In this document: positions 487 through 17,617 of the stretch, piece after piece | How the letters are laid out: each line of letters starts with the position of its first letter | Numbering within the stretch: position 1 is the stretch's first letter | Assembly (NCBI RefSeq): GCF_007556815.1 | Contig: NZ_CP041745.1 | Location: 1,364,001-1,428,000 of the forward strand | Direction: 5' to 3' | Length of the DNA: 64,000 nt | Source: Paraburkholderia megapolitana | GTDB taxonomy: Bacteria; Pseudomonadota; Gammaproteobacteria; Burkholderiales; Burkholderiaceae | Notes under the pieces: generated by a model | Told to the model about the DNA's origin: nothing | The model's database searches: none | The model's input: only the letters and a program-made list of their open reading frames with translations | Translations under genes and position numbers: made by a program

Positions 487-1476
487 TCACGACGAATTTT
501 TGTAGCAATAACCGATGAGCCCAAGAACGATGATTAGCACGCCCACCCAGGACGTCAGATCGGGAATCGGTTGATGCATGAAGGCGATTCCGGCCACCAG
601 CGTAATCACGACTTCACCCGCCAGCGTCGCATCGACGGCCGCAATCTGCATCGCGGACGTCGTGCTGTTCCGGGCGAAATAAAATAGTGACGTCGCGCAA
701 ACACCAGCCAGGAGCGCGACCATGAAGCTGCCGAGGAATTGCTGTGCTGAGGGTGCCGGCGGTTGTATTGCGAAAATTAGCGCAAGCCAGTACGGCACGG
801 ACCCGAGGCTCATCAGCAGAACGCAAGCCATCGGGTTTTCGAGAACTTCATTGTCGGACAACCGCAGGCGGCCGAGCTGATTGTGTTTCGCGCTATTGAC
901 GAACTGATTGCCGATCGGATACGCGATAGCTGCGATCAACGCGGGCAACGCGCCGTGAATCACTTCCGAAACTGCGATGCCCTCCTTGATCCTGCCGTAA
1001 TTCAGGACGAGCACGCCCACTACGATCAGGAAGGAAAACGTCAAGCCCTTGCGGGGCATTTTCTTGCCGAAAAGCATCAGGACAAACGGGCTTGCCAGTA
1101 CCGTCAGTTGCCAGGTCGCAGCGACGACCCAGCCATGCGCGAAGTCGGCGGCGAGACAGATTCCGGAATAGAAAACCCCGAATCCGATGCCGCCGGCCAG
1201 CGTCCAGAACAGCAGGTTCCGGAAATAATTGGCCACCACACGCCTGAAATACGCGCTGCCCCTGGAAATCGGCAGGATCGCCGAGAGCAGTACTAGCATG
1301 AAAAGAAACCTCAATGCCGCCGACCAGAGCCAATGCCCCCCCTGCAGGTGCATGACTTCATTTAGCAGGAACGTGGCACTGAAGAACGCCGAACTGACTA
1401 TGCCGATCAAAACCAGTCTGAATGTGGACGGATTCGTCATGCCCGACTGGGGGTCAGTTTTCGTCGCGGCGTGCAT
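487..1476 (-). CDS. DMT-superfamily (EamA/EmrE-like) membrane transporter
   Basis: A 329-residue very hydrophobic protein with about ten predicted membrane helices, starting with the helix LVLIGIVSSAFFSATFLLNEV, of the drug/metabolite transporter type (two EamA-like halves). Such proteins export metabolites or drugs across the inner membrane. The start at 1476 has GGGAAAG upstream and overlaps the 3' end of the Rieske oxygenase gene by 23 bp, which indicates translational coupling; an inner ATG at 1440 has no good ribosome-binding site. Its place between biosynthetic genes makes it the likely exporter of the cluster product or of a toxic intermediate, alongside the MFS protein at 14176. The substrate cannot be read from sequence. 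Confidence 0.85.
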   Translation of the reverse strand: MHAATKTDPQSGMTNPSTFRLVLIGIVSSAFFSATFLLNEVMHLQGGHWLWSAALRFLFMLVLLSAILPISRGSAYFRRVVANYFRNLLFWTLAGGIGFGVFYSGICLAADFAHGWVVAATWQLTVLASPFVLMLFGKKMPRKGLTFSFLIVVGVLVLNYGRIKEGIAVSEVIHGALPALIAAIAYPIGNQFVNSAKHNQLGRLRLSDNEVLENPMACVLLMSLGSVPYWLALIFAIQPPAPSAQQFLGSFMVALLAGVCATSLFYFARNSTTSAMQIAAVDATLAGEVVITLVAGIAFMHQPIPDLTSWVGVLIIVLGLIGYCYKNSS

Positions 1477-2611
1477 ATACTTTCCCGATTACCCATTTGT
1501 TCATGGCATGTACCACTTCTTCATGGAAAGAAAACCGTCCTGGCAGGCACCATCTTGAGTTGACACCTAGTTGTTGACGTTCGCAGATTCGGTTGTCCTC
1601 ATCGATCACCATGTCCCACCGGGAGATGTAGCGTGGTGAGATATCCTTGAAATCGTCTCGCGCCACGGTACTTTCCGGGAAGCAATACCCCACGTGCACT
1701 TTGGTGGTAGTCGGAGTTTCGGGAAGCTTGTTGATCCACCAGCTCGAATCCTGGGTCGTCACGAGAAAGAAACCGGGGTAGATCATTGTGAAGTAAGTTC
1801 CCGTCGCCTCCTTACCGGAGATGCCGGGAATCTTGGGGAAGATCTTGCCATTGTCCACAGATGTAACGGAAACCGTGCGGGGATATTCGAAAAAGGTGGT
1901 TTCGTATTCACCCGACGACGGTTGCCTCGGGAAAACCTGCTGCCCGATGGAAACGGGATGTACTGTCGGAGCGTGATAGTCCTCCATGTCCACCTCGGTA
2001 TACAACTTCCAGTTGCATTTGACGAGGTGATTTTTCTCCATAACGCAGCGCATCTTCTGCAGCTGATACCCATGCATCTTGTCCGGCAGGTCGCCCAGAA
2101 ACTCCATCAAAGGCGCGGCATCGGTGTCGAAATTGATGAAGATGAAACCTTCCCACGTCTCGACCCGAATCGGCACCAGGCCATTCTTTTCCTTCGCGAA
2201 ATTGATGCTCTTTTTCATGTCCGGCGCACCCATCAGCGAGCCGTCCAGGTCATACCCCCAGTTATGAAACGGGCATCTGATCATCTTGACGGAGCCTTCG
2301 CCATCAAGCAGACGGGCACCGCGATGCCGGCAAAAATTCTGGAACGCAGAAATCCCGCCCTCCGGGTTTCGCAGCACGATGACCGATTCGCCTAGCAGAT
2401 CGAAGACGAAATAATCGCCGGCAGTGGGTACTTTCTCTTCTCTGCCGACAAACAGCCAGTACTTGAAAAAGATGTTGTCGATTTCCGCCTGGAAGAACTC
2501 ATCTGATTTGTAGCACTCCGGCGGCAGGGAGCTTGTTTCCAGAAAGTGGCTTTCCGTTGTTTCGAAAAGCGCCTTCTGGTTCGTTTCCAAAAAATTTCTT
2601 TCGGGGTTCAC
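1454..2611 (-). CDS. Rieske non-heme iron oxygenase, alpha-subunit family
   Basis: About 385 residues. The Rieske [2Fe-2S] motif is complete: C94-x-H96 (CRHRGARLLDG) and C113-x2-H116 (CPFHNWGYDLDG). The catalytic iron site reads EDYHAPTVH with H203 and H208 and a C-terminal Asp near D328 (DEDNRICE). The residue three before the first His, the one that links the Rieske cluster to the iron, is Glu (E200). Aromatic dioxygenases such as naphthalene dioxygenase have Asp there; carnitine and choline monooxygenases have Glu. This suggests an aliphatic amine or amino-acid-like substrate. I chose the GTG at 2611 because AGGAGA lies 7 nt upstream; the frame stays open to 2719 but that part has no family match. 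No reductase or ferredoxin gene is visible nearby, so electrons must come from elsewhere. Confidence 0.88.
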   Translation of the reverse strand: MNPERNFLETNQKALFETTESHFLETSSLPPECYKSDEFFQAEIDNIFFKYWLFVGREEKVPTAGDYFVFDLLGESVIVLRNPEGGISAFQNFCRHRGARLLDGEGSVKMIRCPFHNWGYDLDGSLMGAPDMKKSINFAKEKNGLVPIRVETWEGFIFINFDTDAAPLMEFLGDLPDKMHGYQLQKMRCVMEKNHLVKCNWKLYTEVDMEDYHAPTVHPVSIGQQVFPRQPSSGEYETTFFEYPRTVSVTSVDNGKIFPKIPGISGKEATGTYFTMIYPGFFLVTTQDSSWWINKLPETPTTTKVHVGYCFPESTVARDDFKDISPRYISRWDMVIDEDNRICERQQLGVNSRWCLPGRFSFHEEVVHAMNKWVIGKVYARRDEN

Positions 2612-2767
2612 GATCAAATCTCCTCGAGTCATTTTTCTTGCCGTTTGTGAGGCAGGTCGGTCGACGCTCAGTTGCATGCACAGCGCAACGCGTATCTCGT
2701 TGTCATCGACGAGAGCCACCGTCGAGCGCGGGCGATGTGAGGCGGAATCTGCGTGAGCGAAGGAATC

Positions 2768-3520
2768 TCAGGCATTCACCCCGCATTCCTGCAGTTTTTG
2801 CGCTGCGACCCGCTTTAGATCCACGGATGCGGCTTTCCTTGTCGGACTGCATTCCGTTGGCTGCAAAGCGATCGAGAACGTCCCGCTGCCGAGTTGACGC
2901 AACGATTCAACCAGCGCTTCGCCGCACAGGATGTTGATAGACCGGATGAGTTCCGGGTAGCTCGACGGCACCTCACTTAGCACGCGCCTGAGCAATATAG
3001 GTCCGGTGTCCACGCCCTTGTCGATGAAGTGCACGGTCACGCCCTGGGCCTTTCCTTCGAGAATGGCCCATACATAAGGGTTGTTGCCCCTGATCTCCGG
3101 CAGTAGTCCAGGGTGCACGTTGATGATGCCCAGATTGCACTCGTGAATGACGGATTCCTTGATGATCCGTGTATCCCCAAGAACGGCCAGGTGGATGCTA
3201 GCTGCGCGGATCAGATCGACGCATGCCGTATCGTTGTGGTTTTCAACGATGCGATAGGGAATGTTCTTCTTCCTGCACAGCGCTTCCACGTCGCCGATTT
3301 CGACGAAATCGTCCAGCTCCTTAAGGACACTTCGCTGTTCCTCCACGCCGTCCTGACCTGGCAGCGACGCTTCCTCGATAACCAGTGCGGGTACGAAATC
3401 CGCTTCGATCAAGGCGTCGAGCATCGTGCGACCACGAGGATGGTTCCTGAAATTCAGGTAGACAAACTCGATCTCGCGCTGCATCGCACGCAGACAGAAA
3501 GAAATATCGCTGATCAACAT
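2768..3520 (-). CDS. Formyltransferase-family protein (Fmt/GART fold), amine N-formylation
   Basis: 250 residues with the formyltransferase core and the full catalytic triad: N134 and H136 in INVHPGLLPEIRG and D171 in KGVDTGPIL. This is the N-H-D arrangement of methionyl-tRNA and glycinamide-ribotide formyltransferases, which move a formyl group from 10-formyl-tetrahydrofolate to an amine. It lacks the C-terminal tRNA-binding domain of Fmt, and its length is that of small-molecule N-formyltransferases. The start has AAGGA about 10 nt upstream. It lies directly downstream of the ectoine-synthase homologue, in the place an EctA acetyltransferase would fill in an ectoine operon. I infer that it formylates a diamino acid made by the aminotransferase. 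The acceptor is not proven. Confidence 0.85.
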   Translation of the reverse strand: MLISDISFCLRAMQREIEFVYLNFRNHPRGRTMLDALIEADFVPALVIEEASLPGQDGVEEQRSVLKELDDFVEIGDVEALCRKKNIPYRIVENHNDTACVDLIRAASIHLAVLGDTRIIKESVIHECNLGIINVHPGLLPEIRGNNPYVWAILEGKAQGVTVHFIDKGVDTGPILLRRVLSEVPSSYPELIRSINILCGEALVESLRQLGSGTFSIALQPTECSPTRKAASVDLKRVAAQKLQECGVNA

Positions 3521-3631
3521 GGTCTCAAGATCCTTTAAAAGAATCCGGACTGCCGTGGAGACGGGCGGGCCGATGAACTATCGTCGCGCATCAGCCTCGG
3601 TAATCGAGATCGGTTTGTTCTCGTTCAGAAA

Positions 3632-4015
3632 TCAATCGCTCGCCGGATAAGCGCCGTCCGGCCCATGCGTTTCATCGCCGTTGAGCGCCGGTGAGAATGT
3701 GCAGGCAATGACAATGTCGGTCTCGCAGGTAACGATGTGGTGGTCGTGCTGGTTGAGGGCGTACATCATTCCAGGTTCGACAGGAAATATCTCCTGGGTC
3801 GCGACATTTTTTATTTGCGCCGATCCAGATATGCAATACACGCACTCGAGATGATGCCGATATTGCATCTCTGTTGTCGTGCCGGCATACATCGTGGTGA
3901 TGTGAAACCCGAAACCCATGCCGTCTTTTCTTAGCAGCAATCGCACGCTGTCCCAGGTTTTTTCTTTTTTGTGACGTTCAGTCCCGATGGTGTCTTTGAT
4001 ATTCCTGACAATCAT
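3632..4015 (-). CDS. Ectoine synthase (EctC) homologue, cupin cyclase
   Basis: 127 residues that align from end to end with L-ectoine synthase: MIVRNIKDTIGTER at the start, GMGFGFHITTMYAGT, HHLECVYCISG, MYALNQHDHH, and a C-terminus like the family's NGKEVHDEDGVYP. The three iron ligands known for ectoine synthase fall at the same numbers here: E57, Y85 and H93. T40 and Y52 are also kept. Ectoine synthase closes N-gamma-acetyl-diaminobutyrate to the cyclic amidine ectoine. Here no acetyltransferase is visible, but a formyltransferase follows, so a formylated substrate and a 2-H amidine are plausible. The start at 4015 has GAGGAG 5 nt upstream; an in-frame codon at 4048 is less likely. It is the first gene of the leftward operon, about 87 nt after the inferred transcript start. 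Confidence 0.9.
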   Translation of the reverse strand: MIVRNIKDTIGTERHKKEKTWDSVRLLLRKDGMGFGFHITTMYAGTTTEMQYRHHLECVYCISGSAQIKNVATQEIFPVEPGMMYALNQHDHHIVTCETDIVIACTFSPALNGDETHGPDGAYPASD

Positions 4016-4108: not shown

Positions 4109-4152
4109 ACGGTAACTGCGATTCGCCTGAAGGTCATCCGGAAAAATACGGA
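4109..4152 (-). promoter_or_regulatory. Cluster operator box 2 and -10 for the leftward operon
   Basis: On the minus strand the box reads TCCGTATTTTTCCGGA (4152 to 4137), identical to box 1 at 15 of 16 positions, and is followed like the other boxes by TGA/TGT-x-C. Exactly 22 nt later comes TACCGT (4114 to 4109), which keeps the T, A and final T of a -10 hexamer. No -35 is seen, which fits a promoter that depends on an activator bound near -42. The transcript would start near 4102 and lead into the ectC-like gene. Confidence 0.65.
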
Positions 4153-4294
4153 AGGTCCGAGAAAATCGAAAATCCCCGGTTTTGATCATGATGACGGGCA
4201 CGTGCACTAGAGAAGGGCTTTATCGAATCAGACCGGACACTGTTTGAACTATCCATGCATCGGAATTTTGCGATAGAAATCGATGCATTGTGGT

Positions 4295-4338
4295 TCCGTA
4301 TTTTTACGGATGATCGGGTGTGAAAATCTGGCTATAGT
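4295..4338 (+). promoter_or_regulatory. Cluster operator box 1 and -10 for the NRPS operon
   Basis: TCCGTATTTTTACGGA at 4295 to 4310 is a perfect dyad with arms TCCGTA and TACGGA. It is followed after exactly 22 nt by TATAGT (4333 to 4338). With a start near 4345 the dyad is centred at about -42.5, the place where LuxR-type activators bind and take over the role of a -35. The leader to the NRPS ATG would be about 295 nt, which is long and leaves room for further control. Confidence 0.7.
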
Positions 4339-4432
4339 CGGATCGAATTCATCTAAAAGCCCGCTTCGTGATCTGGCGATCCCAGGTTTCGGATTAATAA
4401 AATGGAGCCGGTGAATCATGCAGGTGTCGATC

Positions 4433-4451
4433 CGGAATTCTCGGAATTCCG
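4433..4451. repeat. 19-bp palindrome in the NRPS leader
   Basis: CGGAATTC and GAATTCCG form perfect 8-bp arms around TCG. A TCCG-N7-CGGA arrangement overlaps it, one base short of the cluster box spacing, so it may be a weaker related site. It lies between the inferred transcript start and the NRPS gene. Confidence 0.4.
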
Positions 4452-4639
4452 TGTGGCGTTTCAGTGTTTTCGGGGCAGGCATATAACCTGAGCATGCGTC
4501 TCCATCAATTCGGGCGAGTGAATATTACTTAAAGAATGAAAATATAAGAACTTATCGGACCACGGTTTTCGTAAGGAGTCGATCTTGCATTCTGCGAGCC
4601 GTCTTCTCTTTGATCTTGCGCCAAACGAGGGTGGATCGC

Positions 4640-7600
4640 ATGTTTATCCAAATATTTCAATCTCACCTGAGTGATTCCGCGGATCGCATTGCGATCTGCT
4701 CGCAAGACAGCAATCTCACGTATGGGGAACTCAACACACAGGCCGAGTCGCTGGCGCTGACGCTCGGCGCGAACGGCGTCAAACCGGGCCAGCTCGTCGT
4801 GCTGTTCATGCCGCGTTCACCGGCGATCGTCATGGGGATGCTGGCGATCATGATGGCTGGCGGCGCATATACCGTGGTCGAGGCGAATGGCGCTCCTCAC
4901 GAGCAGTTGAAGCAGATAGCTGACATAGACGCCGATTTTCTGATTGTTTCCAGCGAACTGACCCATCTCGCCGGTGAGACCGGTTTGCCTTGGTGCACGT
5001 CGCATGGGGCGCCGGCCGACATGCGTGCGCCATTGGAATCGCGGCTTGTGCCCGCGCCGGGCGACGCGACCGCCTATGTGCTTTTCACATCCGGCTCTAC
5101 GGGGGTGCCCAAAGGCGTCGCAGTCAGCCACGACAATCTCGCGCATTACTGCACGGGCCTCATCGTGCGACTCGGTCTGCCGGACGGAATGACGTATGCA
5201 CACGTAAGCACGCTGTCGGCCGATCTTGGTAACACCTGCCTGTTCACGGCGCTTTGGACCGGGGGCACACTGTATCTCGCCGGCGAGCACGAGCGTAAAG
5301 ATCCGCTGGCGATGGTCTCGGCGTTGAACCGTCATCGTGTGAACGTTCTCAAGATCACGCCGACCCACTGGAAATCGATTCTTGCCGTCGCGCAGGCCGC
5401 AGGCGAGCATGCGCCGAAGCTGGAGTGGCTAATACTGGGGGGCGAGAGACTACAGACGGCGCTTGCCCGCAGGACCCTGGAGAGCGGCGTTACCCGGCGC
5501 CTCGCGAACCACTACGGGCCAACAGAAAGCACGATTGGCGTAACCGTGCAGCCGGTCGCCCTGGCGGCGCTCGGTGACGACGGGGACGCGACCGTTCCGA
5601 TTGGTCGCCCGTTCGGCCGGACCACGCTCAAGATCAGAACCGCCGAAGGCATATTCGGCACAGCCGATATCGAGGGGGAGTTGTATATCGGCGGTCCGTC
5701 CGTCGCGCAGGGCTACCGGAACCGGGAGGAGGCCACACGCGAGCGTTTCGTCGAGCTGGAGAACAGCACCGGCCGCTATTACAGGACCGGCGACTGGGTG
5801 CGCGCGGACGGCGAAGGGACGATCACGTTCCTTGGCAGGGTGGATCGTCAGGTCAAGGTGAATGGTTATCGGGTCGAACTGGAACACGTCGAGCGAGCCA
5901 TCCGTAGCAAGGCGGACATCGGTCACGTGGTTGTCGTGCATCACCGTCATCAGGAACACGATTATCTGTTGTGCGCGTATGAAGGTCTGGCGCAGGAGCC
6001 GGCCGCGCTTCGCCGCGAGATGCAACATATCTTGCCCGGCTATATGATCCCCGTTGTCTTCGAGCACTATGCTTCGCTGCCGACCAATCAGAACGGCAAG
6101 ATAGACGGCGGCACCATCAAGCAGCTGCTGATCGACACATTCTCGCGCAGACACGCTCCCGGCGCGGCGTACCTCGCATCAGCACACGCAGACGACGATC
6201 TCCAGACCTTCATCACACGCGTCTTCCGCAAATATGTCGGCGAACGATGCTATTCGCCGGACGATAACTTCTTCGATCTGGGAGCTGATTCGCTGGATGC
6301 GATTCAGCTCATCGCCGAGCTCCAGTTGAGCGGCTATCCGGTCAGCGCGCACGCATTCCTGGAGCGTCCGACCGTAAGGGGGGTGCTAGCGATGATCGAC
6401 GGCGAGCAGGCGAGAACCGCGCCTGCGCCGGCTCCCGAAGAAACGGCCGACAGGTGGCCGTGTTCGCCAGCCCAGCAAGAATTCCTGAAGCGCGGTTTCG
6501 CCGAACCGAACCGGTGGAACCAGGCCATGGTGCTCGAACTCGGAGTCCAGCTCGATCCACTGGTGCTTGAGCGCGCGTTTGACCGCCTCGTTTCCGAACA
6601 TGCGTTGTTGCGCGCCGGCTTTCACCGCGACGAAGCGCTCGGGCAGTGGTATTTCCGCTCCCAGCCGACGGTGGATTCGATTCTGTCCATTTGCGCGGCG
6701 CAGGAAGCACCATGGTCCGACCTGGGCCCGTTCGTGAACGAGCGGTACGGGCACCTTGCCTCGCAACTCGACATCGAGAGTGGGCAGACGTTTCGCGCGG
6801 AGTTGTCGATCATCCGGGGCAAACAGTTCCTTCTGCTCGTGGGACATCATCTCGCCGTCGACGTCATTTCATGGCGAATCCTGCTGGACGATCTGATGCG
6901 TCACTATTCGGTGCTGGAAGGTGTCGAACCGGCTACCCGGGCAATCCGCTCCTGTACGTTCGGACAGTGGTGCCAGCACCTGGAGACCCACCAGGCGCGC
7001 CTCTATGCGGATCGGAATTACTGGCTGGAGCAGCCTCGCCAGGAGCCGTTCTCCGCATCGCATGCAGGCGTGGAAGCGCATTCGGGTACAGCGTGGATCG
7101 CCTTTAGCGCCGTGGAAACAGAAGCGCTGTCGAAGATCGCTGCGTCGCAGAATATGGGCATTGACCGCATGTTGCTTGCCGGATTTTTCGAGCAGTGCGC
7201 GGATGCGCGTCCAGACGAGGTCGTGCAGGTCGACGTGGAGAGCCACGGTCGTTTGTCTCTCTCCCCCGACGTCGATGTATCGCGCACGATCGGGTGGTTC
7301 ACCTCGACATTCCCTGTTGCGTTCGAACGCGGGCAAATTACATCCATTGGGTTGGCGAGCGCATTGCACGAGCGTCTGAACCGCTTACCCAATCTGGGAC
7401 ATGCCTATACGCTGATCGATGGTATGCAACATGGCACGCGTTCGCGATATTGCTTCAATTTTCTTGGCCGGCAGCGCCTCGGCTTGCGAAACGACTGGAA
7501 GATGAAGCTTGTCAGTATCGAATTGCCCAGTCTCAGAGGCGCGCAAAACGACCGGGTCTATGACCTGAAGTTGACCGGGAAGATTGTCGACGGACAACTC

Positions 7601-8956
7601 ATTCTCGATCTGAATTTCGATGCGAGCGCGGATACCGCGCCATCCATCGAACAGTTCGTCCTGAATCTGAAAGAGCGTATTTTGCAACCGGTGGATCCGG
7701 GCTTGCGTTCGAGTGGCCCCCCGCGAATGCACGACGCGAATTCGTCCGGTGCGTTGTGGAATATTCCCGCCGATATTGTGTCGTCCAACGGCGCGGACCG
7801 GAAACGCCGCTCATATGAAAGCATCTTCGTGACCGGCGCGAATGGCTTCATCGGCATCTACGCACTATACGAACTATTGTTGAGTACCGACGCGCACATC
7901 ATCTGTCTGGTTCGCGACAGTGGAGACGAAAGCGCTGCGAGCCGGCTGTTCGATGCATGGTCGGCATTCTTCGATCCCAACGAACTCGAATCGCGGTGGT
8001 CGAGAATCTCGGTGATAGCGGGTGACATCACGCAACCCTGCCTCGGTATGAGCGACGTCGAATGGGACATGACGAGCCGCTCCGCGGATGCGATCTATCA
8101 CTTCGCTGCCGATACTCGCTTGGTTGGTAGCACCACGGAGATGCGGGCAAGCATCCTGCACTCGACGAGAGAAATTGTCAGGCTCGCAGAGCAGGGACGC
8201 CAGAAAGACCTTCACTTCATGTCCACCCTCGCCGTGAGCGGCATGTGCGCGGGCGATGAACCGCGTACCTTCGACGAGGATTCACTCGACGTCGGCCAGA
8301 CCTTCTTCAACGAATACGAGCGCACGAAGTTCGACGCTGAAGTACTGGTCAGGAACTTCGCGTATCAGGGGCGCAGCGCATTCATCTACCGCTCGGGAAA
8401 CGTCACCGGACATTCGGAGACCGCCTTGTTCCAGCGCAACGCCACAGCCAATCGCTGGGTTCAATGTCTGCGGGCCATTGTCACGATCGGGAAAGCGCCG
8501 CGTGTCTATACCGAGCGCATCATTCTGAGCCCGGTCGACATCGTCGCCCGAGGCATCGTCGCCATTTCGCTGGACAGCAACGTATCGGGAGGCACATTCC
8601 ATGTGGACTCCGAAAGTGCGGTTCCCGCGAGTATGTTCATCGACTCGATCGAGGCCTTGGGCGCTCCCATCGAACGCGTCGACAACGCGAATCTCGCAGA
8701 GCTGTTCCGGCATTCCGGCCGGCTCGATCACGCGGACATCGCGCTCGGTTACTTCTGGGCGGTGAGAGGCAGCCGCAACATACGGTACGACAACAGCAGG
8801 ACGCTTGCCATGCTGGCGAGTTCGGACATCGCCTTCAGGCCGCTCGATAGCGCGTGGGTGACACGCTTCGTCGAGAACCTCCGGCAGTCCGGGGCGCTGG
8901 CGGTAGGCGAGCGGCGCGACCCCTCACGTCGAATTTCAGAGTTCATTGCTCAATAA
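4640..8956 (+). CDS. Single-module NRPS, domain order A-T-E-R, predicted aspartate-activating
   Basis: About 1438 residues. Adenylation domain at about 10 to 500, with FTSGSTGVPKG (near 148), YGPTEST, YRTGDW and NGK (K487). Carrier domain with LGADSL, phosphopantetheine serine S551. A condensation-fold domain at about 610 to 1030 is the epimerization type: HHLAVDVISW (H736, H737, D741), ESHGR, SRTIGWFTSTFPV and RYCFNFLGRQR. A terminal thioester-reductase domain follows from about 1060: TGANGFIG (T1065) and YxxxK in FFNEYERTKFD. Aligned to GrsA by eye, the ten specificity residues read DLTKIGHIGK, very close to the known aspartate code. No condensation or thioesterase domain is present, so it should load one amino acid, epimerize it and release it as aldehyde or alcohol. 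The ADLGNT stretch also occurs in glutamine-activating indigoidine synthetases, so glutamine is an alternative. ATG 4640 is preceded by AGGGTGG. Confidence 0.92.
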   Translation: MFIQIFQSHLSDSADRIAICSQDSNLTYGELNTQAESLALTLGANGVKPGQLVVLFMPRSPAIVMGMLAIMMAGGAYTVVEANGAPHEQLKQIADIDADFLIVSSELTHLAGETGLPWCTSHGAPADMRAPLESRLVPAPGDATAYVLFTSGSTGVPKGVAVSHDNLAHYCTGLIVRLGLPDGMTYAHVSTLSADLGNTCLFTALWTGGTLYLAGEHERKDPLAMVSALNRHRVNVLKITPTHWKSILAVAQAAGEHAPKLEWLILGGERLQTALARRTLESGVTRRLANHYGPTESTIGVTVQPVALAALGDDGDATVPIGRPFGRTTLKIRTAEGIFGTADIEGELYIGGPSVAQGYRNREEATRERFVELENSTGRYYRTGDWVRADGEGTITFLGRVDRQVKVNGYRVELEHVERAIRSKADIGHVVVVHHRHQEHDYLLCAYEGLAQEPAALRREMQHILPGYMIPVVFEHYASLPTNQNGKIDGGTIKQLLIDTFSRRHAPGAAYLASAHADDDLQTFITRVFRKYVGERCYSPDDNFFDLGADSLDAIQLIAELQLSGYPVSAHAFLERPTVRGVLAMIDGEQARTAPAPAPEETADRWPCSPAQQEFLKRGFAEPNRWNQAMVLELGVQLDPLVLERAFDRLVSEHALLRAGFHRDEALGQWYFRSQPTVDSILSICAAQEAPWSDLGPFVNERYGHLASQLDIESGQTFRAELSIIRGKQFLLLVGHHLAVDVISWRILLDDLMRHYSVLEGVEPATRAIRSCTFGQWCQHLETHQARLYADRNYWLEQPRQEPFSASHAGVEAHSGTAWIAFSAVETEALSKIAASQNMGIDRMLLAGFFEQCADARPDEVVQVDVESHGRLSLSPDVDVSRTIGWFTSTFPVAFERGQITSIGLASALHERLNRLPNLGHAYTLIDGMQHGTRSRYCFNFLGRQRLGLRNDWKMKLVSIELPSLRGAQNDRVYDLKLTGKIVDGQLILDLNFDASADTAPSIEQFVLNLKERILQPVDPGLRSSGPPRMHDANSSGALWNIPADIVSSNGADRKRRSYESIFVTGANGFIGIYALYELLLSTDAHIICLVRDSGDESAASRLFDAWSAFFDPNELESRWSRISVIAGDITQPCLGMSDVEWDMTSRSADAIYHFAADTRLVGSTTEMRASILHSTREIVRLAEQGRQKDLHFMSTLAVSGMCAGDEPRTFDEDSLDVGQTFFNEYERTKFDAEVLVRNFAYQGRSAFIYRSGNVTGHSETALFQRNATANRWVQCLRAIVTIGKAPRVYTERIILSPVDIVARGIVAISLDSNVSGGTFHVDSESAVPASMFIDSIEALGAPIERVDNANLAELFRHSGRLDHADIALGYFWAVRGSRNIRYDNSRTLAMLASSDIAFRPLDSAWVTRFVENLRQSGALAVGERRDPSRRISEFIAQ

Positions 8957-8978
8957 GCAGCTTAGACAGGATAACAAC

Positions 8979-9737
8979 ATGATCAACCATCGAGTCGCAG
9001 CGGTGTCGGGCGGAACCTCCGGTATCGGCTACGCGGTACTGGAGACATTGGTACAAGCCGACGTCAAAGTCAGCTTCAGTGGACGGCGCACCGAGCGCAT
9101 CCAGCAAATTGCCGTTGAGCATAACGAAAGCCGCCATCGTGTCGAAGGTGTCGCTGCAGACGCGGTGGACGAGGATCATGTAGACAGGCTCTTTGAAGCG
9201 GCAAACCACGCGTTCGGTGAGCGCCCCTCGGCGTTTGTCCTGTGTGCGGGGCGGGGACTTCCGGGTTCGGTAACGGGTTCGGACGCATCCCTTTGGGAGG
9301 AGCTTTTGCGCGTCAATGTGTTGGGAGTCATGCGCCAGTTGCGTGCCTGTGCGACCTTCTTCAAGGACACGTACCGCTCCGCCAGCGGCGACATCAGGGA
9401 TATCGTCGTGATCGGTTCCACGGTGGGTCGCACGTTGTCGGCTGGTAATCCCGTCTACGGGGCGACGAAGTTCGCGCTGCATTCGCTGGTCGAATCGTTG
9501 AGGGTGGAACTCTGTGAACACAGTGTTCGCGTCAGCTTGATCGAGCCAGGATTCGTCAAAACAGAGTTTCAAGCCACGGCCGGCTATGACATGAAATGGT
9601 TCAACGAGATCGAGCAGACCCAGGGACCGTTGTTGTCCGCCCAGGATGTTGCCACCTCGATCCGCTTCGTGCTCGAGCAACCTCCCCACGTGCACATCGA
9701 CGACATCCGGATCCGGCCTACCCGTCAACGCGCATGA
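8979..9737 (+). CDS. Short-chain dehydrogenase/reductase
   Basis: 252-residue classical SDR. The cofactor motif is SGGTSGIGYAV (residues 10 to 20), the catalytic residues are S147, Y160 and K164 (VYGATKFAL), and SGRRTER after the second strand suggests NADP(H). It closely follows the NRPS gene (22 nt) and has AGGA 8 nt before its ATG, so it is cotranscribed. In context it may reduce the aldehyde released by the NRPS reductase domain, or oxidise a later alcohol. The direction and substrate are inferred. Confidence 0.88.
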   Translation: MINHRVAAVSGGTSGIGYAVLETLVQADVKVSFSGRRTERIQQIAVEHNESRHRVEGVAADAVDEDHVDRLFEAANHAFGERPSAFVLCAGRGLPGSVTGSDASLWEELLRVNVLGVMRQLRACATFFKDTYRSASGDIRDIVVIGSTVGRTLSAGNPVYGATKFALHSLVESLRVELCEHSVRVSLIEPGFVKTEFQATAGYDMKWFNEIEQTQGPLLSAQDVATSIRFVLEQPPHVHIDDIRIRPTRQRA

Positions 9738-9782
9738 CCTGTAGATGCAACTTCGTTTCGTAACCTGCTAAGGAAAGCACTC

Positions 9783-10598
9783 ATGGATACCCTTACTTCG
9801 TCGCCGTCGAAAGCTACGGTCCCCGCCGTGGTTGCTCGCGAACTCAATACCGAAACACTGCTGCAACTGGCTACCCGAAAGATCGGGGCGATTCACGTGA
9901 AGGGGTTCTACTCCGCCGCGGTCGCTGAAAAAGCGGCGGAACAGGCAATCGATCACCCCAAGCTCGGGAACTACAACAAGAAATACACCAGTAGCGTCGG
10001 GCGGATCTGCATGCCGCACATCGATTCCGAGTGGAATGAAGACGCCGCCCAGAAATATCACAGCGAAGCGATCGGCAACATTCACGATTTGCGAACGATG
10101 TTCGCACCGCACGTCACACCTGCCGATCATGTTCGTCTGCTGCTGCAGGAATACTGGCCTGGTGGCGCCAACATCCAGCGCCTGCACGGGCGGACCTGTT
10201 TTGTGGGGGCGATCCGCGTCTTCAAGCCCTCGACGTCGAAGTTCTATCCACATCACGATCGCATCGACGAAGAGTCCGATGCACCGGAGCTGGCCGGCAT
10301 CGTCGAGCAGCTCGTGGCGAACATGTACCTGCGCACGCCCACGCAAGGAGGCGATTTGCAGTTGTGGTTGCGCGATCCGTCCGAAGATGAAAAAGTGCTG
10401 ATTCGGGATGTCGAAGGGCTGCTTCCCGAGAGCGTCGAGGAGCCGGCACTGGTACTTCACCCGGACGCCGGCGATCTCATCATCTTCAGTTCGAGAATGC
10501 TGCACGCGGTCACGCCAAGCCGCGACAGCTATCGCATCGGTATGGCGGCCTTCATCGGCTGCTACGGACCGGACCGTCCGCTGGGTTACTGGAGCTGA
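9783..10598 (+). CDS. 2-oxoglutarate/Fe(II)-dependent oxygenase
   Basis: 271 residues of the 2OG-Fe(II) oxygenase fold (prolyl-4-hydroxylase-like superfamily). The metal triad is visible as H157-x-D159 in FYPHHDRID and H241 in RMLHAVTPS, with R251 (YRIGMAAF) placed to bind the carboxylate of 2-oxoglutarate. Because the middle ligand is Asp, not Gly or Ala, this should be a hydroxylase, desaturase or cyclase and not a halogenase. It lies 45 nt after the SDR, with AAGGAAAGCACTC before the ATG. It probably modifies the amino-acid-derived intermediate. The family is clear from the motifs; the closest relative is not. Confidence 0.85.
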   Translation: MDTLTSSPSKATVPAVVARELNTETLLQLATRKIGAIHVKGFYSAAVAEKAAEQAIDHPKLGNYNKKYTSSVGRICMPHIDSEWNEDAAQKYHSEAIGNIHDLRTMFAPHVTPADHVRLLLQEYWPGGANIQRLHGRTCFVGAIRVFKPSTSKFYPHHDRIDEESDAPELAGIVEQLVANMYLRTPTQGGDLQLWLRDPSEDEKVLIRDVEGLLPESVEEPALVLHPDAGDLIIFSSRMLHAVTPSRDSYRIGMAAFIGCYGPDRPLGYWS

Positions 10599-10622
10599 GA
10601 TCGGTCTGCGCCAATGTAGAGT

Positions 10623-10638
10623 CGGGGCGCGCGCCCCG
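10623..10638. repeat. Perfect 16-bp GC palindrome between two cluster genes
   Basis: CGGGGCGC followed directly by GCGCCCCG, in the 51-nt gap between the 2OG oxygenase and the SerB-like gene. There is no T-run, so it is not a normal terminator. In RNA it could form a tight hairpin that protects or pauses the transcript; a protein site is also possible. Confidence 0.4.
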
Positions 10639-10649
10639 GCACCGCGAAT

Positions 10650-11507
10650 ATGACGACATGGGTTCGGATTTTCAGCATCGAGACAATCGATGCGGATACG
10701 CTAGCGCGGGCAAATGCGCTCCTAGGCGCGCGGCCTCATTGCAGGCGCCCCAATCTGCTTGAGTATCGGCTAGAACACTGTGGTGATCGAGAAAGAGGTT
10801 CCATTGACCTCTTTTGCCGGGCGTACGGCCTCGACCACGCTGTGCTTTCCCACGCGTTCGGACTCGATCATTACCGGTTGATGGCGCTCGATATGGACTC
10901 GACGCTGATTCCGATGGAGTGTATCGACGAGCTGGCGAGCCTGGCGGGTGCCGGAGCAGCGGTACGCAGCTTGACAGACGATGCGGTTCGAGGCGTGACG
11001 GGCGACTATAAGGACAGCATGCGTACCCGGGTGCGTATGCTGCGCGGGCTTGAGCAGCACGCTCTGGATCGTTTTCTGAGAGAGCAGATCACACTTACGC
11101 CAGGCGCAGCCGCGCTTGTCTCCGCTGCACGCAAAGCAGGTCTGAAAACCCTCATTGTGAGCGGCGGATTTCAGTTCGTGGCCGATTACGTTGGCCACCT
11201 GCTCGGGATCGACGAGGTAGTTGCGCACACGCTTGGAATTGCCGATGGAAAACTGACTGGTCACCTTGAAGGCGAGGTGATCGACGCTGACGAAAAATCG
11301 CGGATAGTCGGCCGGTTCTGTGAGCGACTCGGGATTGCCCCGAACCAGACGATCGCCGTGGGCGACGGAGCAAATGATATCGGCATGATCCGGTTCGCCG
11401 GCCTCGGCGTCGGATTCCGACCGAAGCCGGCACTACGCGAAGTCTGTTCGGTCAAGCTCGACGTTTCCGGGCTAGACGGGCTTCTGGTTGTTCTCGATGC
11501 AGCATGA
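10650..11507 (+). CDS. SerB-like HAD phosphatase
   Basis: 285 residues. The C-terminal 210 residues are a phosphoserine-phosphatase-type HAD domain: nucleophile and acid D81 and D83 in LDMDSTLIPMECIDELA, SGGFQFVADY, and the metal loop GDGANDIGM. The N-terminal 75 residues resemble a worn ACT-like part of SerB. Housekeeping SerB makes serine from phosphoserine. A copy inside a biosynthetic operon more likely removes phosphate from an activated intermediate or provides serine as a precursor. The ribosome-binding site is weak. The stop lies 19 nt before the next ATG. Substrate not known. Confidence 0.85.
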   Translation: MTTWVRIFSIETIDADTLARANALLGARPHCRRPNLLEYRLEHCGDRERGSIDLFCRAYGLDHAVLSHAFGLDHYRLMALDMDSTLIPMECIDELASLAGAGAAVRSLTDDAVRGVTGDYKDSMRTRVRMLRGLEQHALDRFLREQITLTPGAAALVSAARKAGLKTLIVSGGFQFVADYVGHLLGIDEVVAHTLGIADGKLTGHLEGEVIDADEKSRIVGRFCERLGIAPNQTIAVGDGANDIGMIRFAGLGVGFRPKPALREVCSVKLDVSGLDGLLVVLDAA

Positions 11508-11526
11508 TTTCGCCCAGGGAGGTGTG

Positions 11527-12450
11527 ATGAGTGCGCTAGAAGAAGCGATGAAAGATGCTGCTGCGTCAGGCATCGAGTTTGCGTTCGCCGAAACCAATGG
11601 ACTGCGGATGCACTATGCCCGCAAGGGGCGCGGAAAGCCTCTGGTTCTATTGCACGGCTGGCCTGAATTCTGGATGGTGTTTCGTCCGTTGATGGAGCGC
11701 CTCGAGGACGAGTTCGAACTCATCGTGCCGGATTTGCGCGGCTTTGGTTTTACAGGTAAGCCGTTCGCGGGGCCCGATGAAAACGCGACCGCCGATACGC
11801 ATGCGGAAGACATCAAGGGGCTTTTCGATGCGCTGGGACTCGCGAGCGCGGGCGTAGTGGGTGGGGACCTCGGTGCGTATGTCCTGCAAGCGTTCGCTCA
11901 GCGGTTTCCGGCAAGGCTCGAGCGTGCGTTCTTTTTTTGCACGCCGTATCCGGGCTTGGGCTCACGGTATGGCGCACCCGATCATCTGATCGAGGTCTGG
12001 TATCAGTATTTTCAGCAACTGCCCTGGGCTGCCGACCTGATAGGCGCATCCCGGCAATCGTGCAAGCTATACCTGTCGTACTTCCTGAATCACTGGTCTG
12101 GTGACAATCACGATGTCTTCAAGAACATGATCGAGATATACACGGACATGTTCATGATGAACAACAACATTCAAGGCGGCTTCGACTGGTACCTGAGTTC
12201 GGCGAGAAACCGGCGCAAGTGGCTGGAAGGGACATTGCCCAGGCCGCCCGTCATCCATACGCCAACCCGGTTCCTGTGGGGCCGGTTCGATCCGCTGATC
12301 AAGGCCGACTGGTGCGACAAGCTCGACGAGTATTTCTCGAACTATTCGATCGATTTCGCGGACACCGGACACTTCGTGCACTACGAAGCCGCCGATCTTT
12401 GCGCGAGGGAAATACGTTCGTTCTTCGGTCGTCCGGAGCTGACTTGCTGA
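11527..12450 (+). CDS. Alpha/beta hydrolase, epoxide hydrolase / haloalkane dehalogenase type
   Basis: 307 residues. The oxyanion motif is HGWPEFW, and the nucleophile elbow is VVGGDLGAY with Asp as nucleophile, which marks the epoxide hydrolase and dehalogenase branch and not serine esterases. The late acid is in GRFDPLIKADW and the catalytic His in DTGHFVHYEA. The ATG at 11527 has GGGAGG just upstream; an earlier in-frame start at 11488 would overlap serB-like coding. It may open an epoxide made by one of the two cluster oxygenases, or give self-protection. Both are inference. Confidence 0.85.
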   Translation: MSALEEAMKDAAASGIEFAFAETNGLRMHYARKGRGKPLVLLHGWPEFWMVFRPLMERLEDEFELIVPDLRGFGFTGKPFAGPDENATADTHAEDIKGLFDALGLASAGVVGGDLGAYVLQAFAQRFPARLERAFFFCTPYPGLGSRYGAPDHLIEVWYQYFQQLPWAADLIGASRQSCKLYLSYFLNHWSGDNHDVFKNMIEIYTDMFMMNNNIQGGFDWYLSSARNRRKWLEGTLPRPPVIHTPTRFLWGRFDPLIKADWCDKLDEYFSNYSIDFADTGHFVHYEAADLCAREIRSFFGRPELTC

Positions 12451-12491
12451 GGCCGTCGGTAAGGTCCGGCAAAGCGATTTTTTCCGATGTC

Positions 12492-12535
12492 TCCGTAGTT
12501 CTACGGATGTCCAGTGAGACGGGGGGCGTTATTGT
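12492..12535 (+). promoter_or_regulatory. Cluster operator box 3 and -10 for the aminotransferase-MFS transcript
   Basis: TCCGTAGTTCTACGGA (12492 to 12507) is a perfect palindrome with the same arms as boxes 1 and 2. It is followed by TGT-x-C and, exactly 22 nt later, by TATTGT (12530 to 12535). A start near 12542 would make a separate transcript for the aminotransferase and MFS genes. It also argues that translation of the aminotransferase begins after this point. Confidence 0.68.
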
Positions 12536-12663
12536 CAATCGGGCGCACTGTCGCGACCATGGGCGAGCTCAATGCGAAGCACGGCGAGGCCATCAATCCG
12601 GAATGCAGAACCGGGGCAAGTCTTTTTTCGCCACAATTTCACGCAGATTTTCGAGCGACGCAA

Positions 12664-14130
12664 ATGGAGCGCGAGATAGATAAATTGAACGAGGTGATGA
12701 GTACCCCCTCATCTGGCGAGCGATCGCGAGACGATCTTGCGGGTTCGCGGTCCAGTGAGCTGGACCGGGAGAGTGGCGAGGTGGTGACCGCGAGTACACA
12801 TGCCGGTCGCCTTTCCAGGCCGCAGGACCTCGATAAATTCTGGATGCCGTTCACGGCAAATCGGGATTTCAGGAAGCAACCGCGGCTGATCACGGCTGCC
12901 GAGGGCATGTATTACTTCACGGCTAACGGCGACGGAATCCTCGACGGAACGGCCGGGCTATGGTGCGTCAACGCAGGGCACGGCCGCCGCGAGATCGTAC
13001 AGGCGGTCCATGAGCAAATGATGGAGCTCGACTATGCTCCGTCTTTTCTACAGCTAGGTCACCCGCTGGCGTTTTCCGCCGCCAATAAAGTAGCCGAACT
13101 CACACCGCCCGGTCTCGACCGAATATTTTTCACTAACTCGGGGTCCGAGGCGATCGATACCGCTCTGAAAATGGCGATCTGCTATCACCATTGTCGTGGC
13201 GATACGCAGCGCTTCAGATTCATTGGCAGGGAGCGTAGCTATCACGGCGTGAATTTCGGTGGAATGTCGGTGGGCGGGATCGCGAATAACCGAGCGAAGT
13301 TTCACGCCAATCTCATGCCGGGCGTCCAGCATCTGCGCGCCACCTACGACTATGAAAAGCAGCGCTTCTCCCGTGGGGAGCCGGAGTGGGGGGGAGAACT
13401 GGCGGACGAACTGGAGCAACTGGTGGACGTGCATGGCGCGCACACCATCGCCGCGGTGATTGTCGAGCCGGTCGCGGGATCGACGGGAGTGTTGGTGCCC
13501 CCGCGCGGTTACCTGCGGCGTCTCGAACGCATTGCCCGTACACATGGCATCCTGCTCATTCTCGATGAAGTGATTACCGGCTTTGGACGATTGGGAACCC
13601 CATTTTCGGCACAATATTTCGGCGTGTCCGCGGATCTCATCGTCATGGGCAAAGGCATCAACAACGCCAGTATTCCGATGGCTGCGGTTGCGGCAAAAAA
13701 CGAGATCTACCAGACGATAGTCGACGCTGCCCCGGCCAATACTCCCGAGTTTTTTCACGGATATACTTTCTCGGCGCACCCGGCCGCCTGCGCCGCGAGC
13801 CTTGCGGCGCAGGAGATTTATGCGAGGGAAGGTCTGTTCCAGAAGGCAGGGGCGATGGCGGGTTATTTCGAAGAAGCGATCCACTCGCTGGAAGGCATCA
13901 AAGGGATAAAGGATATCCGCAACATCGGCTTGCTGGGCGCGATCGAATTTGAATCGAATCGCAGTGCTAATGAGGAAATGGCGCTCGAAATTCATTACCG
14001 ATGCTTCGCGAGAGGACTGCTGGTCCGACATACAGGAAGCAGCGTGACCTTGTCCCCGCCTTTCATCGTCAAGGAAGCCGAAGTGGATCTGATGATAGAC
14101 ACCATCGCAGCGGTGCTGAAAACGTTCTGA
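12664..14130 (+). CDS. Class III omega-aminotransferase (beta-alanine/omega-amino acid:pyruvate type)
   Basis: 488 residues. The body matches omega-amino-acid:pyruvate aminotransferases: FWMPFTANRDFRKQPRL, GLWCVNAGHGRREI, NSGSEAIDTALKMA, ERSYHGVNFGG, LDEVITGFGRLG and the PLP lysine K330 in VMGKGINNASIPM. These enzymes move amino groups between an omega-amine or aldehyde and pyruvate. Between residue 1 and about 55 there is a Ser/Arg/Glu-rich stretch absent from the family. The start is uncertain: 12559, 12664 and 12697 are all possible, none with a strong ribosome-binding site. In the cluster it may aminate the aldehyde freed by the NRPS, giving a vicinal diamine. It is the second aminotransferase here. 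Confidence 0.87.
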   Translation: MEREIDKLNEVMSTPSSGERSRDDLAGSRSSELDRESGEVVTASTHAGRLSRPQDLDKFWMPFTANRDFRKQPRLITAAEGMYYFTANGDGILDGTAGLWCVNAGHGRREIVQAVHEQMMELDYAPSFLQLGHPLAFSAANKVAELTPPGLDRIFFTNSGSEAIDTALKMAICYHHCRGDTQRFRFIGRERSYHGVNFGGMSVGGIANNRAKFHANLMPGVQHLRATYDYEKQRFSRGEPEWGGELADELEQLVDVHGAHTIAAVIVEPVAGSTGVLVPPRGYLRRLERIARTHGILLILDEVITGFGRLGTPFSAQYFGVSADLIVMGKGINNASIPMAAVAAKNEIYQTIVDAAPANTPEFFHGYTFSAHPAACAASLAAQEIYAREGLFQKAGAMAGYFEEAIHSLEGIKGIKDIRNIGLLGAIEFESNRSANEEMALEIHYRCFARGLLVRHTGSSVTLSPPFIVKEAEVDLMIDTIAAVLKTF

Positions 14131-14175
14131 TTTTTCGATTGCAACGTCGTCGATTTCCCTCAAGGAGTGGCCGTA

Positions 14176-15453
14176 ATGGTCGAACAGCATACAACGCAGT
14201 ATGGTGACCGGCATCGCTGGAAGATCCTGGGAATTGGTGTTGCTGCAAACGCGAGCTTTGCAGCGGTATTTCAGGGATTACCCACCACGTCCGTGTTGAT
14301 GCGGATGAACTACAACCTGTCGAACGATCAGCTGGGATTGGCGTTGGGCCTGCTTGGCATGGGTATCGCTGTCAGCGAAATACCCTGGGGGCTGCTGACC
14401 GATCGCTGGGGCGACCGGCGCGTGTTGCTGACCGGCTTGGGGGCGACGTCCATTGCGTTATGCCTGTTTGCGCTGTTCGGTTCGCCGACGGCCGATCGTG
14501 TTCCCGGTCCATGGCAACTGGCGTTGGGCCTGTTTTTTGTCGGCCTGCTCGGCGGGAGCGTTAACGGATCGAGCGGTCGTGCAGTGATGTCATGGTTCAA
14601 GAAAAATGAGCAGGGTTATGCAATGAGTATTCGGCAAATTGCTTACCCTTTGGGTGGAGGAATAGGAGCGCTGTTGTTGCCGGTGGTAGCGTCGCGATTC
14701 GGCTTCAATGCGACATTTGCGGTGCTTGCGTTCGGATGCGTCACGACAGCCGCATTTACCTGGGTATGGCTCCACGAGTCGCCCGAAAAAATCAGACAGG
14801 ACGCTGGCGTCAGGACGCCGGCGCCAGGCGATGCGGGCGTAGCGGCGAAAGACGCCTCGGCGGCGCGCAGTCCATTGCGCGACTTCAAAATATGGAGAAT
14901 GATCGCCGCGATCGGCCTGTTCAGTGTTCCGCAGTTCGCCGTCATCACCTTCGCATCGATCTTCCTGCATGACGTGTGCAAGGCGGGGATCGTCGTCACG
15001 GCCGGGATCATGATCGTCATTCAGTCCGGCGCGATTGCGGCGCGGATCTGGAGCGGGCGCTGGACCGACAGGCACGGCAACCGGCGCTACTATCTGATCC
15101 GGTGTAGTTTGCTGGTCGCTGTCTCTTTCGCTGTTCTAGCGTTGTCCCTGTTCGTCCTGGGACGGTTAAACATCGATAATTCGCTCAAGCTGGTGATCAT
15201 TTCCGCACTGCTCATTGTATCCGGCGTATGCGCATCGGCCTGGACCGGCATCGCGAATGCGGAACTCGCCGTGCAGGTTGGAATCCGGCGTGTCGGTACT
15301 GCGCTTGGCATGTGCAATACAGCGGTCTATACGGCGCTATTCTTCGCACCTTACTTCACCCCCATCGTCGCGAAATTGTGGTCCTGGCCGGCCGCATGGT
15401 TGATGGCTAGCCTGTTCGCTTTCTCCGCGAATGCACTGTTCAGGCGTACGTAA
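14176..15453 (+). CDS. Major facilitator superfamily transporter
   Basis: 425 residues with twelve predicted membrane helices and the MFS loop motif GLLTDRWGDRRV between helices 2 and 3, with a related GRWTDRHGNRRY between helices 8 and 9. The ATG at 14176 has AAGGAG 8 nt upstream, 45 nt after the aminotransferase. Coupling to the cluster makes export of product likely, though uptake of a precursor is possible. It is the last rightward cluster gene and converges with the lysR gene 70 nt on; no intrinsic terminator is seen between them. Confidence 0.87.
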   Translation: MVEQHTTQYGDRHRWKILGIGVAANASFAAVFQGLPTTSVLMRMNYNLSNDQLGLALGLLGMGIAVSEIPWGLLTDRWGDRRVLLTGLGATSIALCLFALFGSPTADRVPGPWQLALGLFFVGLLGGSVNGSSGRAVMSWFKKNEQGYAMSIRQIAYPLGGGIGALLLPVVASRFGFNATFAVLAFGCVTTAAFTWVWLHESPEKIRQDAGVRTPAPGDAGVAAKDASAARSPLRDFKIWRMIAAIGLFSVPQFAVITFASIFLHDVCKAGIVVTAGIMIVIQSGAIAARIWSGRWTDRHGNRRYYLIRCSLLVAVSFAVLALSLFVLGRLNIDNSLKLVIISALLIVSGVCASAWTGIANAELAVQVGIRRVGTALGMCNTAVYTALFFAPYFTPIVAKLWSWPAAWLMASLFAFSANALFRRT

Positions 15454-16816: not shown

Positions 16817-17617
16817 CTAAATCATTCCGAGATGCGAGAACTGGACCAGGAGTTCAGTCTTGTTCGAGCACCCCAGCCTGGACTTCATGTTGTCGATATG
16901 AGTTTCAACCGTGCGGGCCGACAGACCCAGTCGATGGCCGATCTGGCGAGCGGTTTGCCCTGTGATGATGTGTCGGGCGATTTCTAGCTGCCTACCGGTG
17001 AGCAGTTGGGGATGTGAGCTGACGAGGCCCCACGCTTTTGGCCTGGGCAGGATGTCGTTGCCCAGACGGGGAGCGTCGGGTGGACTCGACGCTTTAACGA
17101 GTCTCTGGCTCGACGCGGCCGAAATCAGACTGGCCGCGACGATCTTGAAGAAACTGGAAAATTGTTCGAACGTCGCGAGATTGTTTATATAAAAAATTTC
17201 TGCGGAGCGCCGCGAAGCGGAGCTATAAAAAGAAAAGAATTCGCATGAGTCATTGAGCTTTATCACAATCTCAAATGGACTGGTGTGATCAAAAATGATC
17301 CGCTGATCGACCAGGTGCATTGAATATTTATCGCGAATTAAATCAGGGAATGACTCAATCTTGCTGTCCAGCAGAACATAACGTTCGTTGATATTGTAGT
17401 AATCCGCTGTGTAGGTTCCGGTAATATATTTCTTCTTGAAAAATGTATGTTCGAGTGCATTCGGATCGCTCCAGAGTTCGGCTCGCGACCCATCCTTGTA
17501 GACTCTGGAGTATGAAAAAAAATTTATCTCTGCTGCTTTAAACAGATCTTTGCATATCTCGGCAATGTCATGGGTTGCCATGAGAGAGGTATTTATACGA
17601 GACATCGTGCGACTCAT
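16817..17617 (-). CDS. LuxR-family (GerE helix-turn-helix) transcriptional regulator
   Basis: 266 residues. The C-terminal 60 or so residues are a clear LuxR/GerE DNA-binding domain: LTGRQLEIARHIITGQTARQ, LSARTVETHIDNMKSRLG. The N-terminal 170 residues are a sensory domain that I do not recognise as a standard autoinducer domain; it holds aromatic-rich segments such as YITGTYTADYYNINERYV. No luxI synthase is visible, so it would be a LuxR solo. Its base composition is more AT-rich than its neighbours. It is the best candidate for binding the TCCGTA-N4-TACGGA boxes, whose -42 position fits a LuxR activator. That link is inferred. Confidence 0.87.
   Translation of the reverse strand: MSRTMSRINTSLMATHDIAEICKDLFKAAEINFFSYSRVYKDGSRAELWSDPNALEHTFFKKKYITGTYTADYYNINERYVLLDSKIESFPDLIRDKYSMHLVDQRIIFDHTSPFEIVIKLNDSCEFFSFYSSASRRSAEIFYINNLATFEQFSSFFKIVAASLISAASSQRLVKASSPPDAPRLGNDILPRPKAWGLVSSHPQLLTGRQLEIARHIITGQTARQIGHRLGLSARTVETHIDNMKSRLGCSNKTELLVQFSHLGMI

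Follow-up and report, generated by a model that had tools for sequence, protein, structure and literature searches.

Three dyads before three operons

The 64,000-nt stretch of the Paraburkholderia megapolitana genome analysed here (the window; contig NZ_CP041745.1, positions 1,364,001 to 1,428,000) carries near its start a biosynthetic gene cluster comprising an operon headed by a nonribosomal peptide synthetase (NRPS), a divergent operon headed by an EctC-like protein, an operon for an aminotransferase and a major facilitator superfamily (MFS) transporter, and genes for a LysR-type and a LuxR-type regulator. Each of the three operons is preceded by a copy of the dyad TCCGTA-N4-TACGGA, and these dyads, their conservation in a relative, and the regulator that probably reads them are the subject of this report; coordinates are collected in Table 1.

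The three dyads lie where the preliminary description of this DNA had put them and on the strands it had given, each 22 nt before a -10-like hexamer (TATAGT, TACCGT, TATTGT), and each continues, as that description also held, with TGA or TGT, one further base, and then C. These bases belong to a degenerate -35 element; contrary to the further claim that no -35 is present, all three promoters have one. At six of six sites, three in the window and three in another genome of the genus, G339, the -35-like hexamer takes the final base of the dyad as its first and is separated from the -10 by exactly 17 nt. The hexamers (ATGATC, ATGACC, and ATGTCC in the window; ATGATC, ATGTTC, and ATGACT in G339) match TTGACA at 3, 4, 3, 3, 2, and 4 of 6 positions, and the six -10 hexamers match their consensus at 3 to 5 of 6. 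A standard sigma-70 scan detected none of the three window promoters, as the quality of their -35 elements would lead one to expect; poor -35 elements that touch the dyad are what one would expect of activator-dependent promoters. If the -10 is assumed to span -12 to -7, the dyad centre falls by arithmetic, counted from the predicted -10, at -42.5 in all six sites.

The arrangement is rare. A scan of the window for the dyad with up to 2 mismatches found 6 matches against 1.17 expected (0 of 100 shuffles reach 6), and the dyad with at most 1 mismatch followed by TA...T at the 22-nt spacing occurs three times in the window and not once across 150 dinucleotide shuffles. The 7.63-Mb genome (3 contigs) contains two copies of the exact dyad, both inside the cluster, and no scatter of copies at unrelated genes such as the preliminary description had named as a sign against a single regulon. 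With up to 1 mismatch allowed there are 12 places genome-wide, 3 of them in the cluster, and 5 for a reversed control pattern; the nine dyads outside the cluster correspond to about 0.02 expected per 17 kb, TA...T is found at the 22-nt distance in none of their 18 flanks, and only two flanks start with TG.

The symmetry of the six aligned sites is even-centred. In five of the six the 4-bp centre is rich in T on one and the same strand with respect to the direction of transcription (the sixth is GTTC), and the box is therefore not fully symmetric; perhaps the bendability of the centre matters. We also considered autoregulation of luxR through the dyad and rejected it, since even the closest match in the DNA ahead of luxR departs from the dyad at 4 positions in the window and at 5 in G339; with no dyad before it, luxR itself is probably controlled by other means.

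Conservation of the sites in a relative

An NRPS match at E<=1e-200 is found in 5 of 144 genomes of the genus, the window's own included. The closest relative is that of G339 (63% identical), and G339 also has the EctC-like protein, formyltransferase, Rieske oxygenase, EmrE-like protein, EctB-like aminotransferase, short-chain dehydrogenase/reductase (SDR), WelO5-like enzyme, and alpha/beta hydrolase, together with both regulators (LysR 74%, LuxR 63% identical). No G339 match was found for the haloacid dehalogenase-like (HAD) protein of operon 1. Nor was there one for the MFS transporter of operon 3 in the 48 kb of G339 examined, where the only match to its aminotransferase, at 25%, is EctB.

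A scan of the G339 NRPS locus with the bare dyad, which is an independent test, returned two sites, which share the ectC/NRPS intergenic region and face in opposite directions; a -10-like hexamer follows each of them after 22 nt (TATAGT on the NRPS side, TATGGT on the ectC side). The intergenic DNA has otherwise diverged, and its best-scoring block (46 bp, 84.8% identical) spans the NRPS promoter from dyad to -10. A third G339 dyad, with one mismatch, lies between the LysR gene and an SDR gene; its place and orientation fit a left-over operon 3 promoter, and no significant DNA similarity to remnants of the aminotransferase and MFS genes was found beside it. Five of the six sites stand upstream of a cluster gene and the sixth, this last one, has no clear target gene. 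Over the six sites the dyad carries 1.40 bits of information per column, the five bases that follow it 1.13, and the -10 1.10, against 0.22 in the spacer and 0.20 to 0.25 outside.

Sites, LuxR, and LysR across genomes

A composite pattern (dyad plus spaced -10) was written after the first two G339 sites had been seen, so that its matches in G339 are not independent, and its TANNGT ending was fitted to five sites; the third G339 site (TACCTT) was recovered at 3 mismatches. With at most 1 mismatch the composite occurs at five places in the 144 genus genomes, all within the two clusters. Two further places, in other genomes (G356 and G383), appear at 2 mismatches, where the reversed control gives three matches, and at 3 mismatches there are 10 places in 6 genomes, namely the five fitted sites, the third G339 site, and four elsewhere; the reversed pattern has four matches at that level, so unrelated matches do arise there.

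The LuxR-type protein (alignment A1, E<=1e-30) is found in 2 of the 144 genus genomes, the same two that have the composite sites, and in 1 of 399 genomes of the order, the window's own; at E<=1e-25, 4 of 398 genomes of the family match, which are the window's own, two in which the location of the match agrees with the Pandoraea plasmids, and one with a C-terminal fragment. The LysR-type protein (E<=1e-70) is found in three genus genomes, the third being G326, where a LysR protein 61-62% identical is encoded beside an alpha/beta hydrolase of 70% identity and an SDR that is 29% identical to that of operon 1, which suggests that these three form a module of their own. Neither an NRPS (E<=1e-200) nor a LuxR (E<=1e-30) was found in G326, and the composite, sought with up to 2 mismatches, is missing there as well; the 19.5 kb around the G326 LysR locus (L085) contain one bare dyad at 2 mismatches, more than 8 kb from the LysR gene. 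The distribution of the sites therefore follows that of LuxR (2 of 2) more closely than that of LysR (2 of 3).

More distant NRPS relatives (38-52% identical) occur in G343, G312, and G340 of the genus and in G122 of the family. In the 18 to 19 kb around these NRPS genes we found no dyad at 0 to 1 mismatch and no LuxR match, and the whole genomes of the first three have no LuxR match at E<=1e-30; a lone dyad at 2 mismatches in G343 (L038:4737) lies about 2.8 kb upstream of the NRPS with no TA...T at 22 nt in either direction.

The LuxR-type protein and its relatives

The 266-residue LuxR-type protein (P0001) has a C-terminal GerE domain (PF00196, 3.9e-14). In a stretch of 20 residues over the recognition helix of its helix-turn-helix motif, the window and G339 proteins differ at one position. 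Its N-terminal domain is modelled with the fold of the N-acyl-homoserine lactone (AHL) receptors, TraR being among the structural matches. No match to the corresponding Pfam family, PF03472 Autoind_bind, was seen for P0001 among 6 families at E<=5, nor among the 25 of 29 families seen across 11 members of its clade (weak matches above about E 0.1 being mostly filtered out), and because no such match was seen we rejected a strict AHL receptor identity for P0001. When P0001 is aligned together with four Autoind_bind proteins encoded in the same genome, no W/DP pattern matching the pocket residues W57, Y61, D70, P71, W85, and G113 (TraR numbers; the list is from PMC10134790) is evident in this poorly aligning domain. 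The genome encodes seven Autoind_bind proteins, all outside the window and P0001 not among them, two of which lie near a luxI; one luxI match exceeds the cut-off (contig C1), another, far away, falls below it (C3), and none stands beside the cluster LuxR gene.

A search of about 5.8 billion proteins found at least 11 LuxR relatives covering at least 60% of the protein, one shorter fragment, and 18 more matches covering at most 36%; the number of relatives is a lower bound, as a search of plasmids added three at 39-41%. These three (L058, L059, L060) are encoded on conjugative plasmids of Comamonas and Pandoraea in a different context, where a neighbouring gene carries the annotation thiamine phosphate synthase; the Pandoraea plasmids have an MFS transporter gene there too.

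It is possible, although we hold it to be doubtful, that the protein belongs to a small clade with an AHL-receptor fold that senses a ligand other than an AHL, perhaps the cluster's own product or an intermediate.

A proposed cluster-specific activator and its rivals

We propose, with a probability of about 0.76, that the LuxR-type protein is an activator dedicated to this cluster and has the three dyads as its operators, acting in class II position at about -42.5. A dimer of this protein would bind each site, with each GerE domain reading one TCCGTA half-site; at -42.5 it would abut the poor -35 and recruit RNA polymerase, and the NRPS, ectC-ectB, and aminotransferase-MFS operons would be switched on together. 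We infer binding, activation rather than repression, the transcript starts, and the sensing of a ligand by the N-terminal domain. The preliminary description had arrived at the same outline, a single regulon with dyads centred as lux boxes are and, most likely, the cluster LuxR as its regulator, and both the preserved spacing in G339 and the co-occurrence of sites and LuxR among genomes support it.

Several observations weigh against this proposal, and we wish to set them out together: i) the pair of sites and LuxR is found in two genomes only, so that the co-occurrence amounts to one comparison; ii) LysR is present in both site-bearing genomes too, so that the preference for LuxR depends on a single genome, G326, and on geometry; iii) Verminephrobacter aporrectodeae At4, in a fragmented assembly, keeps several cluster enzymes with neither a LuxR in the assembly nor upstream dyads; and iv) no dyad at 0 to 1 mismatch is found in the 29 to 41 kb around the LuxR relatives on the Comamonas and the two Pandoraea plasmids (2, 0, and 2 dyads, respectively, at 2 mismatches), nor any at up to 2 mismatches in the 19.5 kb around a LuxR fragment in G034 (50% over the C-terminal part). 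The absence of dyads near these distant LuxR relatives proves little, because their recognition helices differ. At4, for its part, gives no test of the NRPS promoter, because a transposase gene (DDE domain, 2.4e-34) adjoins the NRPS start and takes the place of the promoter region. Two At4 dyads at 2 mismatches were dismissed as lying inside the MFS gene.

LysR boxes follow the pattern T-N11-A and are centred on a base. The LysR-type protein of the cluster, whose gene accompanies the dyads in both genomes and is well conserved between them (74% identity), would be the nearest other candidate to bind them and control the cluster; yet no T-N11-A is common to at least five of the six aligned sites, their even-centred symmetry is unlike that of LysR boxes, and G326 has the LysR protein but, at the thresholds given above, no NRPS, LuxR, or composite site, all of which makes this candidate unlikely. 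We find it improbable, too, that the dyads are operators of a repressor, be it the LuxR-type protein or another dimeric protein, relieved by a ligand. Perfect palindromes are typical of repressor sites as well, the predicted -35 shares one base with the dyad, and LuxR-family repressors are known (one also appears in a reference title in PMC10134790). The dyad, however, covers neither the -10 nor the start, the promoters seem weak enough to do without repression, and the unvarying distance from dyad to -10 across the six sites fits an activator that touches the polymerase.

Use of the sites by a regulator encoded elsewhere, for instance one of the seven Autoind_bind LuxR proteins, is very unlikely: such proteins and a luxI are available outside the window, but the exact dyad is found nowhere else in the genome, and no genus genome without the cluster LuxR has the composite at up to 1 mismatch. 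Dyads 1 and 2 are alike in their centre, TTTT, and their starts lie within 158 bp of each other, as functionless repeats arisen by chance or by recent local duplication might, but the centre of dyad 3 differs, the sites persist in G339 amid diverged DNA, and none of the 150 shuffles yields a composite site; this explanation is refuted for practical purposes. We conclude that activation by the cluster LuxR is the probable function of the dyads.

Genes of the cluster

Operon limits are those suggested by spacing and strand. For the NRPS, ATG 4640 is preferred over the first possible start in the frame, TTG 4610, because the sequence MFIQIFQSHL also follows an ATG in Verminephrobacter. From this ATG the NRPS leader would measure about 295 nt, compared with about 250 nt in G339, and the leader sequence is barely conserved. 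The aminotransferase of operon 3 probably starts at 12559 or later.

Table 1. Features of the cluster and of its counterpart in G339 (window coordinates unless a locus is given).
Feature	Position	Strand	Basis or remark
Dyad 1, TCCGTATTTTTACGGA, candidate operator of NRPS operon	4295-4310	+	sequence scan; counterpart in G339
NRPS promoter: degenerate -35 ATGATC 4310-4315, 17-nt spacer, -10 TATAGT 4333-4338	4310-4338	+	predicted start ~4345
Dyad 2, TCCGTATTTTTCCGGA, one mismatch, candidate operator of ectC operon	4152-4137	-	sequence scan; counterpart in G339
ectC promoter: degenerate -35 ATGACC 4137-4132, 17-nt spacer, -10 TACCGT 4114-4109	4109-4137	-	predicted start ~4102
Dyad 3, TCCGTAGTTCTACGGA, candidate operator of aminotransferase-MFS operon	12492-12507	+	sequence scan
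Operon 3 promoter: degenerate -35 ATGTCC 12507-12512, 17-nt spacer, -10 TATTGT 12530-12535	12507-12535	+	predicted start ~12542
NRPS, domains A-PCP-C-thioester reductase, first gene of operon 1	4640-8956	+	domain matches
Operon 1 remainder: SDR, WelO5-like iron/2-oxoglutarate (Fe/2OG) enzyme, HAD, alpha/beta hydrolase	8946-12450	+	domain matches
Operon 2: EctC-like (ATG 4015), formyltransferase, Rieske oxygenase, EmrE-like	487-4015	-	domain matches
EctB-like aminotransferase, 422 aa, operon 2 end, extends past window start	1-403 and beyond; L069:13136-14404	-	
Operon 3: class III aminotransferase, MFS transporter	12514-15453	+	domain matches
LysR-type regulator P0002	15524-16564	-	rival candidate binder, thought less likely
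LuxR-type regulator P0001, 266 aa, GerE domain 205-257	16817-17617	-	proposed activator
G339 NRPS-side dyad	L037:10617-10632	-	
G339 ectC-side dyad	L037:10706-10721		
Third G339 dyad, one mismatch, TACCTT after 22 nt	L047:2621-2636	-	between LysR and an SDR

The aminotransferase at the end of operon 2, whose G339 counterpart is 75% identical, is called EctB-like on our reading of the sequence rather than from a family-library run. In the ectC operon a formyltransferase replaces the EctA acetyltransferase, and the product may be a formyl-derived cyclic amidine (ectoine minus the methyl group) that serves as an NRPS building block. The WelO5-like Fe/2OG enzyme of operon 1 (window 9783-10598, match E 3e-8), a candidate halogenase or hydroxylase, is the best-conserved protein of the cluster, with 87% identity in G339 and 90% in Verminephrobacter. 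In At4 (L031:1056-1874 and 7877-8041) the match to the HAD protein is confined to its first 55 residues, and the interval between HAD and MFS contains neither the hydrolase nor the aminotransferase; to judge by these sequences the At4 cluster appears to be in decay or rearranged. No description of the cluster was found in the literature by title or abstract.

Relation to known systems

Lux and tra boxes are even-centred, and the core of the tra box consists of two 6-bp arms around 4 bp with the half-site TGTGCA. The window sites are likewise even dyads with a 6-N4-6 core and differ from the tra box of TraR (Agrobacterium Ti plasmid) in the half-site, TCCGTA; the cluster LuxR, unlike TraR, has no Pfam Autoind_bind match that we could see and no adjacent luxI. 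The lux box of LuxR in Vibrio fischeri stands at a promoter whose -35 is, as here, weak; it is a 20-bp box, whereas the box here is 16 bp with a 4-bp gap, and the half-site differs again. In predicted position the sites resemble both: a passage of PMC7585371 centres the lux box at -42.5, and PMC3907764 places class II tra boxes, 18 bp long, near -45 and overlapping the -35, a geometry similar to the one predicted here. The same review has divergent tra operons sharing one tra box, whereas the divergent operons here have a dyad each.

The cluster also resembles those of LuxR solos such as MalR, a GerE regulator in a biosynthetic cluster with no luxI neighbour (excerpts of PMC10134790 and PMC5872303). 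MalR, CarR, and CepR2 keep the six AHL pocket residues, according to PMC10134790, whereas the cluster LuxR shows no Autoind_bind match. A passage of PMC5872303 reports luxR linkage for 1,019 of 52,433 NRPS clusters but for just 1 of 2,000 ectoine clusters, which makes it unusual to find a LuxR-type box before an ectC-like operon, although the operon described here is part of an NRPS cluster.

We found no described TCCGTA-N4-TACGGA box among openly licensed papers, a result that does not prove its absence, and in the portion of PMC8174753 that contains it the hexamer TCCGTA is part of a primer. The system looks functional and in principle ordinary, with a box that is new in sequence and known in kind and a regulator from a sparse clade.

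What the dyads provide is a precise candidate operator for a seemingly uncharacterised NRPS/ectoine synthase-like cluster, with which one can mark out the pathway genes and perhaps activate them through one protein. They also point to a sparse LuxR clade whose sensor domain matches no Pfam model among those listed. Should the ligand indeed be something other than an AHL, the three operators would constitute a feed-forward chemical switch, with a new class of ligand and a new box.

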